Assembly (NCBI GenBank): GCA_913020075.1 | Contig: CAJWAE010000005.1 | Coordinates: forward strand, 1 to 49,095 | Direction of reading: 5' to 3' | DNA: 49,095 nucleotides | Source of the DNA: an uncultured Flavobacteriaceae bacterium | Lineage (GTDB): Bacteria > Bacteroidota > Bacteroidia > Flavobacteriales > Flavobacteriaceae | Shown here: positions 28,540-38,868 of the stretch, in pieces | How positions within the stretch are numbered: the first letter of the stretch is position 1 | How the letters are laid out: each line of letters starts with the position of its first letter | Position numbers and translations under genes: made by a program | The notes under the pieces: generated by a model | Databases searched by the model: none | The model's input: only the letters and a program-made list of their open reading frames with translations | Told to the model about the DNA's origin: nothing

Positions 28540-28546
28540 TGACATA

Positions 28547-28607
28547 ACGAGGAAGGATTTGACTGATTGCAAACCTCGAAAAAAAATTGCTAAAGCAGAT
28601 TTGCTTT
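28547..28607 (+). ncRNA. SAM-II (SAM_alpha)-like riboswitch upstream of metK
   Basis: ACGAGGAAGGATTTGACTGATTGCAAACCTCGAAAAAAAATTGCTAAAGCAG: P1 CGAGG/CCTCG, loop GATTTGAC..ATTGCAA, 3' GCTAAA-GCAG with pseudoknot pairs CTG/CAG and GC/GC, as in the SAM-II metX aptamer. Confidence 0.8.
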
Positions 28608-33624: not shown

Positions 33625-34503
33625 TTACTTAATGCGTTGACTTTCTAAAACAACTGTGGTCAAAATAAGTAAACCTCCGATCAAGCTTTTCAGATTTGGA
33701 ATTTCATGAAGGAATATTACGGCTAATATCACACCAAAAATAGGTTGAACACTACTCAGAATACTTGCAGTACTGATTCTAAAATGAAAAAAACTGGTCA
33801 AAAAAAGAGTATGTCCTAGTGCAGTTGTTACTCCACCTAGAATTAGAAGATATGGGAGTTGAGAAACTATTTTTTCTTGTGGATAAATCCAAAGTACAGG
33901 TAATAGAATTAATAGGACAACACCCATTTGATAAAACATTTGAATAGATCCATTCGCCATATTGGAATTAGATTTTAAAATCAAATTTCGAAGAGCATAA
34001 ACAATAGCAGAAAATACCCCTATTATTAATCCTTGAGTTTCTGTATTTCTTATATCAAAAGCGGGGACCAACAAATAAACTCCTATTAAAATTATTAATC
34101 CAAAGATTATATGAATTGACTGTAATTTTGTTTTAACAAAAAAAGGTTCTAATAAAATAGTAAAAATAGGGTATGTAAATAGAGAAAGCATTCCAATAGT
34201 AACATTACTCCATTGTAGTGCAAAGAAATAAGTCACCCAATGTAGAGCCATAAATAATCCGCTAAGTAAAATAGCTTTACCATTGTTTTTCCAGTCAATT
34301 TTGAAGGAATATTTTTTCAACAAACAGAAAGTGCCTAGAAGAAGAATTGCAAATAAAGAACGATACCAAATCGTTAGGGGAGGACTCAACTTAATATAAC
34401 GCCCCAAGACACCTGATGTGCTTATAAACAGCATTCCTAAGTTAAGTAAGATTAAATAGTATAAGTGAGGGTTTTTGGATTTCATAGATGATAAAATAAA
34501 CAA
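33625..34503 (-). CDS. EamA/DMT family transporter
   Basis: Ten-TM pattern with two EamA repeats (IWYRSLFAILLLG...; LSSVQPIFGVILAVIFLHEIPNLKSLIGGLLI). Confidence 0.88.
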   Translation of the reverse strand: MFILSSMKSKNPHLYYLILLNLGMLFISTSGVLGRYIKLSPPLTIWYRSLFAILLLGTFCLLKKYSFKIDWKNNGKAILLSGLFMALHWVTYFFALQWSNVTIGMLSLFTYPIFTILLEPFFVKTKLQSIHIIFGLIILIGVYLLVPAFDIRNTETQGLIIGVFSAIVYALRNLILKSNSNMANGSIQMFYQMGVVLLILLPVLWIYPQEKIVSQLPYLLILGGVTTALGHTLFLTSFFHFRISTASILSSVQPIFGVILAVIFLHEIPNLKSLIGGLLILTTVVLESQRIK

Positions 34504-34715
34504 AAAAATATATGGTAATTAACTCCCATAAAATTCTTGATGTAATAGATAAATGACTAATAAAAATCTCATTACAGATGTTAATATAGAAAAATCAAGC
34601 TGATATTTATTAAGGAAAGATAATGGATTACAAAACAACTTTTACAGGGGTTTATTTTATTTTCAGAAAGAAGGTATTTACTTTTCTCAGTATTAATTTA
34701 ATTTCAAAACACTTT

Positions 34716-34740
34716 TATATTTTGGCTTAACCAAAATATA
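34716..34740. promoter_or_regulatory. 10-bp perfect inverted repeat, operator-like
   Basis: TATATTTTGG-CTTAA-CCAAAATATA, ending 10 nt upstream of the putative -33 element. Confidence 0.5.
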
Positions 34741-34750
34741 GTGCTGAAAA

Positions 34751-34781
34751 TTTGTTTTTGACAAAAGCAATAGTACTTTTG
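34751..34781 (+). promoter_or_regulatory. Bacteroidota-type promoter for the aromatic amino-acid operon
   Basis: TTTG (34751-34754), 19-nt spacer, TACTTTTG (34774-34781). Confidence 0.65.
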
Positions 34782-34798
34782 TTCTGATTTAAATAAAT

Positions 34799-34867
34799 AT
34801 GAAAACATTTAATTTCTATTTCAACAATTTTTATTACTTCTATTTAGAGATAGAAAGGACTTTGTAG
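34799..34867 (+). CDS. Phe/Tyr-rich leader peptide MKTFNFYFNNFYYFYLEIERTL
   Basis: 22 codons; 5 Phe and 4 Tyr among codons 4-15; the stop is 2 nt past the antiterminator strand. Not in the ORF track because of its size. Confidence 0.75.
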   Translation: MKTFNFYFNNFYYFYLEIERTL

Positions 34868-34900
34868 TAAAAGAAATACTATTTATAAATTTAAAGTCCT
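34856..34900 (+). promoter_or_regulatory. Antiterminator pairing
   Basis: AGGACTTT (34856-34863) is perfectly complementary to AAAGTCCT (34893-34900), the 5' strand of the terminator. Confidence 0.75.
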
Positions 34901-34923
34901 GATTTAATCGGGACTTTTTTTTT
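34893..34923 (+). terminator. Intrinsic terminator / attenuator upstream of pheA
   Basis: AAAGTCCTGAT-TTA-ATCGGGACTTT, 11-bp stem with one G-U pair and 9 consecutive T (34915-34923). Confidence 0.92.
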
Positions 34924-34930
34924 GAGATAT

Positions 34931-35764
34931 ATGCAAGAAAATAAAACAACAGCGATTCAAGGAATTCAAGGATCCTTTCATCATAAAGTAGCTCAGTCTT
35001 ATTTTGGAAATGATTTAGTGCTTTTGGAATGTAAAACCTTTGATGCTACTGTAAAAGCATTATTAAATGGTCAAGCAGATCAAGCTGTTATGGCAATAGA
35101 AAACTCTATTGCAGGCTCTATAATACCAAACTATGCATTAATTGATCAAAATGACTTGAAGATAGTTGGAGAGTATGGCTTAAGTATACATCATAATTTG
35201 ATGGGTTTGATTGGGCAATCTTTACAGGAGATCAGAGAGGTTCACTCCCATCCAATGGCGATACTCCAGTGTATGGAATTTTTTAAATCTCATCCTAAAA
35301 TTCGATTAGTGGAAGCAGAAGATACTGCAGATGAAGCTCGAAGAATTGCAGTAAATAAACTTCAAGGAATTGCTGCTATTGCCAGTAAAGAGGCTGCTGA
35401 ATTATATCAGCTATCTGTTTTAGAACATTCAATTCAAACAATTCAAAATAATATAACTCGATTTGTTATTGTTCAAAAAGAAGGGACTCCTGTTTCTGAG
35501 GCTAAAATCAATAAAGCAGCACTTAAATTTACTTTAGATCACCAAAGGGGAAGTTTGGCTGCAATCTTGAATGTGATGAGTGATTGTCAATTGAATTTGA
35601 CTAAAATCCAATCTTTGCCGGTTATAGAAACACCAGGAAAATATGCTTTTTTTGTTGACGTAACTTTTGATTCCTTTTCTCACTATGATAAGGCACGTAA
35701 ACTCATTTCAATTATGGCCTCAAAAATTAAAATATTAGGCGAGTACGCCCAGCACAACCCATGA
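34931..35764 (+). CDS. pheA: Prephenate dehydratase
   Basis: IQGIQGSFHHKVAQSYF, MAIENSIAGSI, SHPMAILQC, NNITRFVIV, then an ACT domain. ATG 34931 preferred over a TTG located in the terminator T-tract. Confidence 0.93.
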   Translation: MQENKTTAIQGIQGSFHHKVAQSYFGNDLVLLECKTFDATVKALLNGQADQAVMAIENSIAGSIIPNYALIDQNDLKIVGEYGLSIHHNLMGLIGQSLQEIREVHSHPMAILQCMEFFKSHPKIRLVEAEDTADEARRIAVNKLQGIAAIASKEAAELYQLSVLEHSIQTIQNNITRFVIVQKEGTPVSEAKINKAALKFTLDHQRGSLAAILNVMSDCQLNLTKIQSLPVIETPGKYAFFVDVTFDSFSHYDKARKLISIMASKIKILGEYAQHNP

Positions 35765-36906
35765 TAGCAACAGCTCAACGTTTAGAAAGTGTCCAGGAAT
35801 ACTATTTTTCTCGAAAATTACGAGAGGTAGCTCAAATGATTCAAGCGGGTCATCCTGTAATCAATATGGGGATCGGAAGTCCTGACTTACCACCACACCC
35901 AGAAGTCATTAAAGCTTTAGAGCAATCCATGAGAAATCCTGAAGCTAGCATGTACCAGAGTTATCAAGGGCTTCCTGAGTTGCGAACTGGTATTGCTGAT
36001 TTTTATAAAAAACACTACAAGGTCACTTTGGATGCGAACAATGAAATCCTTCCATTGATGGGTTCAAAAGAAGGAATTATGCATCTATCTATGGCTTTTT
36101 TAAATAAAGGAGATAAAGTATTGATCCCCAACCCAGGCTATCCAACTTATCAATCTGTAACCCGTCTTTTAGAGGCAGAGCCTATTTTTTATGATTTAAA
36201 AGCTGAAAATAATTGGCAACCTGATTTTAAAGCTTTAGAGGCATTAGACACAAAAAAAATCAAAATCCTTTGGTTAAATTATCCCAATATGCCTACGGGT
36301 GCTAACGTAGTGGTTGATACTTTTGATAGATTGATTTCTTGGGCAAAATCAAGAAATATTTTATTAGTCAATGACAATCCATATAGCTTTGTTTTAACAA
36401 AAACTCCACAAAGTATTTTATCTAGACCAGGAGCCAATGAGGTAGCTGTAGAGTTAAATTCTCTTAGTAAGTCTTTTAATATGGCAGGCTGGCGTGTGGG
36501 AATGATTTGTGGAAAAAAGGAAACCATCCAGTCTGTATTAAAAGTAAAAAGTAATATGGACTCTGGAATGTTTTTTGGAATTCAGCAAGGAGCCATTGAA
36601 GCCCTTAAAGCTGAATATTCATGGTTTGAGAAACTTAATTTGATTTATCAAAAAAGGAGAAATTTGATTGAAATTATAGTAACTAAATTAGGTGCCAGTT
36701 TTGATTCTAAAAGTGTGGGTATGTTTGTATGGGCGAAATTACCTGAAGGCTCTCCTGATTCTGAAACCTTCATAGATAAAATATTAAAAGAACAAAATGT
36801 ATTCATAACTCCTGGAACTATATTTGGAAGTCAAGGTGAAGGCTATATAAGGTTTTCACTTTGTTTAACTGAAGCGACTATTAAAGAAGCAATTAAACGT
36901 TTTTAA
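35761..36906 (+). CDS. Class I/II pyridoxal-phosphate aminotransferase (aromatic operon)
   Basis: GIGSPDLPPHPEVIKAL, YPTYQSV, WLNYPNMPTGA, NSLSKSFNMAGWRVG; 4-nt overlap with pheA. Confidence 0.9.
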   Translation: MIATAQRLESVQEYYFSRKLREVAQMIQAGHPVINMGIGSPDLPPHPEVIKALEQSMRNPEASMYQSYQGLPELRTGIADFYKKHYKVTLDANNEILPLMGSKEGIMHLSMAFLNKGDKVLIPNPGYPTYQSVTRLLEAEPIFYDLKAENNWQPDFKALEALDTKKIKILWLNYPNMPTGANVVVDTFDRLISWAKSRNILLVNDNPYSFVLTKTPQSILSRPGANEVAVELNSLSKSFNMAGWRVGMICGKKETIQSVLKVKSNMDSGMFFGIQQGAIEALKAEYSWFEKLNLIYQKRRNLIEIIVTKLGASFDSKSVGMFVWAKLPEGSPDSETFIDKILKEQNVFITPGTIFGSQGEGYIRFSLCLTEATIKEAIKRF

Positions 36907-36908
36907 AA

Positions 36909-37778
36909 ATGAATATAGGGATTATAGGTTTGGGTTTGATAGGAGGTTCTTTTGCTTTGGCAGCTAAAAAATATTCAATAGGTAGTATTTTATTTGGTTC
37001 TGATCAGAAAAGGGAACATTTTGACGAGGCAATGCATATGGGAATAGTCGATTATGAACTTAACCATGAAAACTATGCGGATATGGATGTCATTATCTTG
37101 GCAATACCTGTAGATACTTCCTTAGAGGTCGCTTCTTCTATATTGGATAAAATTAATGAGAATACTTTACTTATAGATGCAGGCTCTACTAAAACAGCTA
37201 TTTGTAAGCTTTTGAGGCTACATCCAAAAAGAAATCAATTTTTAGCCACTCATCCAATTGCGGGTACTGAATTTTCCGGACCCTCCGCAGCCTACGCCGA
37301 TCTTTTTTTAGATGAATCTCAAATTATATGTGAATCTCAAAAAACACGTCCTGATTTATTAGAATGGGCTGTTCAATGGTTTCGAAATATGAATATGCAA
37401 GTCAATGAAATGGATCCTGAAGCACATGATAAGCATATTGCTTATGTGTCACATCTTTCCCATATCTCATCTTTTATGTTGGGAAAAACTGTCATGGAAA
37501 AAGAAAAAGATGAACGAGCTATTTTTGATATGGCAGGTAGTGGATTCAGATCAACGGTACGTTTGGCAAAAAGTTCACCTGATATGTGGACACCTATTTT
37601 CAAGCAAAACCAAAAAAATATTACAAAGGTTCTTGGTGAATATATTACCAATTTACAAGACTTTAAAAGTCTATTGGAAAATAATAGCTATGATCACCTT
37701 TACAGTCAAATGAAAGAAATAAATGCCATTAAAACTATTTTGGCTGGAATTAAAAACAATAAGACAACTAATAAATAA
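36909..37778 (+). CDS. tyrA: Prephenate dehydrogenase
   Basis: IGIIGLGLIGGSFALAAKK Rossmann motif, DAGSTKTAI, THPIAGTEFSGPSAA, HDKHIAYVSHLSHISSF. Confidence 0.92.
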   Translation: MNIGIIGLGLIGGSFALAAKKYSIGSILFGSDQKREHFDEAMHMGIVDYELNHENYADMDVIILAIPVDTSLEVASSILDKINENTLLIDAGSTKTAICKLLRLHPKRNQFLATHPIAGTEFSGPSAAYADLFLDESQIICESQKTRPDLLEWAVQWFRNMNMQVNEMDPEAHDKHIAYVSHLSHISSFMLGKTVMEKEKDERAIFDMAGSGFRSTVRLAKSSPDMWTPIFKQNQKNITKVLGEYITNLQDFKSLLENNSYDHLYSQMKEINAIKTILAGIKNNKTTNK

Positions 37779-37782
37779 TTAA

Positions 37783-38868
37783 GTGATGGAGAATAAAAAA
37801 GAAATGCGTCAATGGCTAAATAATTTTGGATTAGATCATCCTTTAGTTATTGGAGGGCCCTGTAGTGCTGAAACTGAAGAACAGGTTCTTAAAATAGCAC
37901 ATGAATTGAAAGATACTGACGTCACTGTTTATCGGGCAGGAATATGGAAGCCCAGAACGCGTCCTGGAATGTTTGAAGGAGTTGGCGCTATTGGCTTGGC
38001 TTGGCTTAAAAAAGTAAAAGAAGAAACAGGACTTTTAACAGCTACAGAAGTCGCCAATAAAGATCACGTAAAATTAGCTATAGACAATGATGTAGATATT
38101 CTTTGGATTGGAGCTCGTTCAACAGTAAGCCCTTTTATTATGCAAGAAATTGCTGATGCTTTGAATGGTACTGAAAAAATAGTTTTAGTGAAAAATCCTG
38201 TGAATCCTGATTTAGCATTATGGCTTGGAGGTGTTGAGCGCTTGTATACAGCAAACATAAAAAACTTAGGATTAATTCATAGAGGATTCTCAACATATGA
38301 GAAAACAAAATATCGTAATATTCCTGAATGGCAAATTGCTATTGAAGTAAAAAATAAATTTCCTGATTTACCAATGATTTGTGATCCTTCGCATATTGCT
38401 GGCCGTCGTGATCTAATTCTTGATATTTCTCAAGCAGCTTTGGATCTTAATTTCGATGGACTTATGATAGAAACACATTGGGATCCTGATAATGCATGGA
38501 GTGATGCAGCACAACAAGTTACCCCAAAGCGTTTGGTAGAAATCATGAAAAATTTAAAGGTTCGAAAAGTGACAGACGATGCAGAAGCATACCAAAATGA
38601 ATTAAATACATTAAGGGCTCAAATTGATGTGATTGATCAAACGCTTCTTGACACCCTTGGTAAAAGAATGAGAGTGGCAAGTAAAATAGGAGAAATCAAA
38701 CTTTCGAACAATGTTGCTGTTCTACAAAATAAGCGTTGGAACGAAATTTTAGGGAAAATGATTTTAGAAGGTCAAGATCGTGACTTGTCAGAGGAATTTA
38801 TTCTTCGTGTTTTTAAGGCAGTCCATCAAGAGTCCATTAATAAACAAGAGAAAATACTAAATTCATAA
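37783..38868 (+). CDS. Bifunctional DAHP synthase / chorismate mutase
   Basis: VIGGPCSAETEEQVL, YRAGIWKPRTRPGMFEG, CDPSHIAGRRDLI, and C-terminal AroQ-type LRAQIDVIDQTLLDTLGKRMRVASKIGEIK. Confidence 0.94.
   Translation: MMENKKEMRQWLNNFGLDHPLVIGGPCSAETEEQVLKIAHELKDTDVTVYRAGIWKPRTRPGMFEGVGAIGLAWLKKVKEETGLLTATEVANKDHVKLAIDNDVDILWIGARSTVSPFIMQEIADALNGTEKIVLVKNPVNPDLALWLGGVERLYTANIKNLGLIHRGFSTYEKTKYRNIPEWQIAIEVKNKFPDLPMICDPSHIAGRRDLILDISQAALDLNFDGLMIETHWDPDNAWSDAAQQVTPKRLVEIMKNLKVRKVTDDAEAYQNELNTLRAQIDVIDQTLLDTLGKRMRVASKIGEIKLSNNVAVLQNKRWNEILGKMILEGQDRDLSEEFILRVFKAVHQESINKQEKILNS

Follow-up and report, generated by a model that had tools for sequence, protein, structure and literature searches.

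A Probable Phe/Tyr Leader-Peptide Attenuator Upstream of the pheA Operon in Flavobacteriaceae and Related Bacteria

The aromatic amino acid operon of an uncultured member of the Flavobacteriaceae is very probably controlled by a ribosome-mediated attenuator, through which charged tRNA-Phe and tRNA-Tyr control the pheA–aminotransferase–tyrA–DAHPS/CM genes. The element lies on contig CAJWAE010000005.1 (assembly GCA_913020075.1), of which a stretch of 49,095 nucleotides, referred to here as the window, was analysed; the features described below are on its forward strand unless noted. Comparative computation supports the leader, the switch strands and their conserved pairing, the promoter motif and the conserved spacing of the element.

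Organization of the Element and its Operon

A predicted Bacteroidetes-type promoter, TTTG-N19-TACTTTTG, occupies positions 34751–34781, with the TTTG box at 34751–34754 and TACTTTTG at 34774–34781, separated by 19 nt. It is followed by a leader ORF of 22 codons, MKTFNFYFNNFYYFYLEIERTL* (34799–34867), which begins at ATG 34799, ends at a TAG stop (34865–34867), and contains the control codons F4 to Y15; nine of the 12 codons at positions 4–15 specify Phe or Tyr, confirming the count made in the sequence-only reading of this DNA. The antiterminator 5′ strand, AGGACTTT (34856–34863), is located in the last leader codons and pairs with AAAGTCCT (34893–34900), the antiterminator-pairing part of a shared strand, AAAGTCCTGAT (34893–34903), that serves as either antiterminator 3′ strand or terminator 5′ arm. 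Positions 34907–34923 hold the 3′ arm of the terminator, ATCGGGACTTT, together with its U tract (T at 34915–34923). The switch strands named in this report are AGGACTTT, AAAGTCCT and GGGACTTT.

Promoter, leader, strands and terminator were all found where the sequence-only reading had placed them, with two amendments. The 11-bp terminator stem (34893–34903/34907–34917) stands, but the nine T residues assigned to its tail do not, as three of those at 34915–34923 sit in the stem and six lie behind it. Likewise, the elements listed were correct but incomplete, lacking two helices referred to here as P0 and P1. The left arm of P0, TTTTTATTAC (34828–34837; the protector helix, or strand “1”), pairs with its right arm, GTAGTAAAAG (34864–34873), inside which the leader stop is found. 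P1 is a pause-like hairpin, TTCTATT-TAGA-GATAGAA (34838–34855), comprising the last control codons and the codons that follow. The first six nucleotides of the P0 right arm (34864–34869) have an alternative partner, 34877–34882, with which they make up the antiterminator’s inner stem. Other than 34893–34917, no terminator-like site occurs in the region 34300–35300.

Four genes follow: pheA, encoding prephenate dehydratase (PDT, ACT region; 34931–35764; Pfam PF00800, 5.8e-58), where ACT PF01842 matches below the Pfam cut-off only; a class I/II aminotransferase (35761–36906; PF00155, 1.2e-61); tyrA, encoding prephenate dehydrogenase (36909–37778; PF02153 and PF20463); and a DAHP synthase fused to chorismate mutase (37783–38868; PF00793 and PF01817). 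These domains agree with the operon proposed at the outset, in which the Phe and Tyr branches are accompanied by DAHP synthase.

The promoter is a recurring feature as well. The motif TAnnTT(T/A)G is found in the 45 nt preceding the leader ATG in 86 of 100 relatives versus 4.5 expected from control windows, in keeping with the suggestion that the transcript covers the leader.

Conservation of the Leader

The leader is present family-wide. Upstream regions of pheA were taken from 90 genomes of the family, one per genus; in 89 of these regions (400 nt tested), an ATG leader with Phe or Tyr at six or more of 10 codons is followed shortly by a terminator. In the 90th region, L069, a leader with five of 10 such codons and its terminator are located 550–650 nt upstream, behind inserted repeats. 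A further 80 named and 28 same-genus loci, which partially overlap the 90, also have both features after anchor corrections; apparent absences in L069, L199, L229 and L242 were explained by insertion or by the search anchor. As a side observation, the Gelidibacter-type genomes of L069 and L199 have several hundred bases between attenuator and pheA, with the leader ~470–650 nt upstream, and the insert of L069 contains four repeat copies.

It could be supposed that the terminator serves just to end a transcript from upstream or to insulate pheA, and that the leader ORF is a product of chance. TTY and TAY codons are frequent in AT-rich DNA, a worry raised in the sequence-only reading itself, and a leader alone with at least seven of 10 Phe/Tyr codons appeared in 22 of 2000 dinucleotide shuffles of the window’s upstream region. 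However, the threshold of at least eight was reached in only two of 2000 shuffles, never with a terminator, and leader and terminator together were absent from all 450 shuffles in which the pair was sought, whereas they occur in all 90 family regions. The upstream neighbour gene (33625–34503) is on the opposite strand. Together with the conservation described here and the pairing tests below, these results make such an explanation barely credible.

The leader also carries the signature of a translated sequence. In the 12-codon cores of 118 leaders, TTY codons number 559 and TTR (Leu TTA/TTG) codons eight, while core-codon differences within the genus are biased toward the third position (180, 263 and 605 at positions 1, 2 and 3, respectively). 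Relative to the pheA genes of the same loci, leaders are enriched for Phe (23.0% versus 4.5%), Tyr (15.8% versus 3.1%) and Trp (2.5% versus 0.3%). By this sequence signature, the element includes a small, probably translated ORF in which codons for the products of its operon occur in runs. Of 118 leaders, 67 include Trp codons, though that of the window does not, and since many relatives add them, the element is better called Phe/Tyr/(Trp).

Leader composition shows a further peculiarity. In the 118 relatives, Asn accounts for 11.5% of leader residues versus 5.5% in pheA, and its codons in leader cores lean toward AAC rather than AAT (52:25 versus 128:320, p 2e-10) in a manner that P0 and P1 do not account for. 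Given this enrichment, and the recurrence of Trp and Asn near the aromatic run, some residues besides Phe and Tyr are constrained. The same facts could be read as signs of a nascent-chain arrest peptide, which would bind free Phe or Tyr and thereby stall the ribosome rather than sense tRNA charging, much as TnaC is an arrest peptide responding to Trp. Arrest peptides conserve specific residues, whereas the leader peptide is highly variable (compare MKTFNFYFNNFYYFY, MLQNTWQGFYFYFYFF and MKQICTFGLFYYFGFYY), with Phe and Tyr interchanging at each position. A nascent-chain sensor is therefore considered quite unlikely, and the charging of tRNA-Phe and tRNA-Tyr is retained as the preferred signal.

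Pairing of the Antiterminator and Terminator Strands

In nearly every species, the leader end is complementary to the terminator 5′ arm, even as its sequence changes from AGGACTTT in the window to GAGACT, GGGACT, GAGGCTTT, GAGCGGTC or GCCGGGA in relatives. Antiterminator/terminator complementarity scores 10.7 for a sequence’s own strands versus 7.3 ± 0.24 for permuted ones. An alignment of 100 sequences shows the five core pairs between antiterminator strand and terminator 5′ arm to be 94–99% intact, with alternation of A-U and G-C, and the whole helix of eight pairs to be 80% paired, as compared to 30–49% when slid. Because relatives share changes, the test was repeated with one sequence per family; over 13 families, the score was 19.4 versus 13.6 ± 0.9, with 0 of 1000 permutations. 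A within-family count on the pheA tree gave 1–12 independent strand changes per column, too few for significance, so the strand-change argument rests on the 13-family test. Complementarity of the strands beginning at 34856, 34893 and 34907, for which a covariation check had been proposed, is thus kept through sequence change, and the element has a mutually exclusive antiterminator and terminator with one shared strand.

In covariance model R1, constructed on 25 sequences, alignment at the antiterminator strand was poor, so the model’s structure covers the terminator alone. Strong covariance-model matches in the genus occur before pheA only. Weak R1 matches at L275, L276 and L277 proved to be ordinary terminators.

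Helices P0 and P1

Pairing of P0 and P1 is likewise favoured in relatives. Across 118 sequences, P1 complementarity is 14.8, versus 12.7 ± 0.18 when permuted and 12.9 ± 0.15 under synonymous resampling; with one sequence per family, the figure is 3 of 1000 permutations. For the Phe codon at core position −2, two codons short of the core end, TTC is used 70 times and TTT 17 times, though TTT is the commoner codon elsewhere. P0 complementarity in the same number of sequences is 16.8 versus 13.2 ± 0.3, with 0 of 1000 permutations using one sequence per family.

P0 forms an outer helix around P1, with the antiterminator strand bulged out. Since P0 and the antiterminator inner stem use the same stretch, P0 is the counterpart of the classical 1:2 protector. 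An upstream protector that pairs directly with the antiterminator strand was also considered and set aside as weak (10.7 versus 10.0 ± 0.15); P0, which pairs with the stretch just 3′ of that strand, is the better-supported protector. On this pairing support, a pause/protector (1:2) hairpin involving leader codons is part of the element, and the predicted helices together give the classical 1:2/2:3/3:4 logic.

Stall Geometry, Folding, and a Model of Control

The distance from the last Phe/Tyr codon of the core to the antiterminator strand is tightly conserved in relatives (mode 11 nt, SD 2.3 nt), whereas the position relative to the stop codon is not (SD 7.7 nt); a few species have their leader stop ahead of the antiterminator strand. 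Spacing that is fixed to the codon run and free at the stop is what a sensor that stalls at codons needs. The folding ensemble of the window agrees. For RNA ending at 34905, the computed probability of the antiterminator is 0.97–0.99 when no ribosome is present or when one occupies any of the Phe/Tyr codons tested; it is 0 when the ribosome sits at the stop. By comparison and computed folding, then, a stall frees the antiterminator strand and a ribosome at the stop covers it, as the geometry set out in the sequence-only reading had it.

Two explanations with other roles for the 5′ region bear on this geometry. If a riboswitch or an RNA-binding protein acted on the 5′ UTR, the ORF would be incidental. 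The UTR does contain several conserved helices, but the strong coding signature (the TTY/TTR ratio and third-position bias), spacing set by the codon run, and the lack of any Rfam family for the pheA element at gathering thresholds in the window and the loci of ten relatives make this extremely improbable. Alternatively, the leader might act mainly via translational coupling or reinitiation onto pheA, as genes of Bacteroidetes are commonly preceded by short leaders (PMC4833913). The reinitiation peak in that phylum is 11–14 bp (PMC4833913), whereas the leader stop is 63 nt upstream of the pheA ATG in the window and ~300–570 nt upstream in L027, L199 and L069, with the terminator between. The chance of coupling being the main mode of action is next to nil.

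Attenuation by a translating ribosome remains the preferred explanation, and we infer the following sequence of events. Transcription would start just upstream of the leader, which a ribosome would translate. Should tRNA-Phe or tRNA-Tyr be short, the ribosome would stall within codons 4–15, opening P0 and P1 while 34856–34863 stays free to pair with 34893–34900 ahead of synthesis of the terminator 3′ arm, allowing transcription of the operon. Conversely, with both tRNAs plentiful, a ribosome at the stop (34865) would cover 34856–34863, and the terminator (34893–34917) would form. With no ribosome, P0 and P1 would favour the terminator state.

In the complete RNA, the terminator is the more stable fold in every ribosome state, by 5.3 kcal/mol when ribosome-free and by 3.4–4.2 kcal/mol with a stalled ribosome. 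For this reason, the modelled switch would have to be kinetic, a kind of decision common to known attenuators. Low expression without leader translation, with P0 and P1 favouring the terminator state, is only suggested by the model, since bare RNA to 34905 still favours the antiterminator (0.97).

Taken as a whole, the attenuator interpretation of the sequence-only reading is supported; absence of a conserved leader ORF or of strand covariation, the outcomes that sequence comparison could have brought against it, did not occur.

Distribution and Other Leaders of the Source Genome

The element extends to several other families of the order (L101–L103, L107, L109, L110, L112 and L113). Among 26 new loci sampled from the class, the detector used found leader and terminator in 13, a leader without a recognised terminator in two, and neither in 11. 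Two more loci with the element, L261 and L262, belong to other classes in the phylum. Endosymbiont-sized genomes (f15) show no recognisable element, and the terminator is absent.

The source genome has other leaders of this kind. A Trp leader, MNQKIIYLTWWSTNT*, precedes a trpE-like Chorismate_bind gene (L264, contig C18) and is followed by a terminator, TAAGGCTTGTC-ATTC-GACAGGCCTTT, while a His leader, MIKKTSHIHHSNCFSDELY*, precedes hisG (L266, contig C33) and is followed by AAAGCCCGTTTGA-GAAA-TCAAATGGGTTTT. A single genome thus applies the same logic to Phe/Tyr, Trp and His. No comparable leader was found at the HMGL-like genes (PF00682) of this genome. Separately, a SAM-II (long loop) riboswitch was noted at 28543–28603 of the window (74.1 bits), and at ~100–420 of locus L145, trpE is preceded by a tandem pair of Trp-leader attenuators, MQKINTIWWWQSKL and MLNNKINNWWWPVLTQYAGQSCYNII, with a terminator after each.

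Relation to Known Systems

The closest classical counterpart is pheL of Proteobacteria (RF01859), which likewise has a product-rich leader ORF before pheA, alternative antiterminator and terminator, and 1:2–2:3–3:4 logic. In contrast to pheL, the present element mixes Phe and Tyr codons (often with Trp in relatives), precedes an operon with tyrA, an aminotransferase and DAHPS/CM, and has a Bacteroidetes promoter; no homology was detected. The RF01859 Phe_leader model scored 23.9 bits in the window against a cut-off of 55, on the terminator part only, and gave no match at gathering in relatives.

The arrangement had been thought little described, which is too strong. In a 2021 transcriptome map of Flavobacterium psychrophilum, the main text lists 5′ elements upstream of pheA and hisG, describes both as conserved elsewhere in Flavobacteriaceae, that of pheA in other genera, and as lacking an Rfam match, and reports “strong clues” of leader-peptide attenuation before amino acid operons (PMC9723704). 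That structured element, located before the same gene in the same family, is very likely the one described here, although the main text gives no leader sequence, strands, amino acid specificity, or spread beyond the family. The pheA element had therefore already been glimpsed, and what is added here is its strands, geometry, P0/P1, aromatic specificity and wide range. The full architecture is apparently undescribed in the literature covered; the survey by Lopatovskaya et al. (2010) lay outside the comparison, and an earlier prediction is possible.

A cis-regulatory motif of the phylum, Bacteroid-trp (RF01692; PMC2864571), also precedes this work in Rfam. Together with the trpE Trp leaders, it shares the mechanism class and phylum of the pheA element but differs in its Trp codons, gene and sequence. 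It had no match in the window or in G000, and in a search of 38 relatives none rose above the cut-off; sub-threshold matches at L145, from a related family, are Trp leaders with WWW and terminators. Elsewhere, Phe/Tyr uORFs have been reported before shikimate-pathway genes (PMC6429828), and uORFC-13-1 precedes aroF in Acholeplasma with a terminator adjacent (PMC8632094). Both resemble the present leader in being aromatic-codon uORFs, the Acholeplasma case with a terminator as well, although uORFC-13-1 is found outside Bacteroidota, in that genus and unassigned environmental sequences.

Significance

A broader proposal, for and against which we see the odds as even, is that these elements form one family of attenuators, ancient in Bacteroidia and present too in some other classes of the phylum. 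A single leader would pool codons for Phe, Tyr and, in roughly half the leaders sampled, Trp, to control a shared aromatic operon that includes DAHPS/CM. Its control codons would also supply one arm of the pause hairpin, which would place codon choice as well as codon identity under selection.

As of 2010, leader-peptide systems were described as unknown outside Proteobacteria and Actinobacteria before the Firmicutes cases of that same study (PMC2965389). Through a widespread Phe/Tyr(/Trp) attenuator, the present element would bring Bacteroidota into the range of classical leader-peptide attenuation, mostly described in those two phyla. A new Rfam family would be justified, and the strand-by-strand model of the element is explicit and open to test in flavobacteria.
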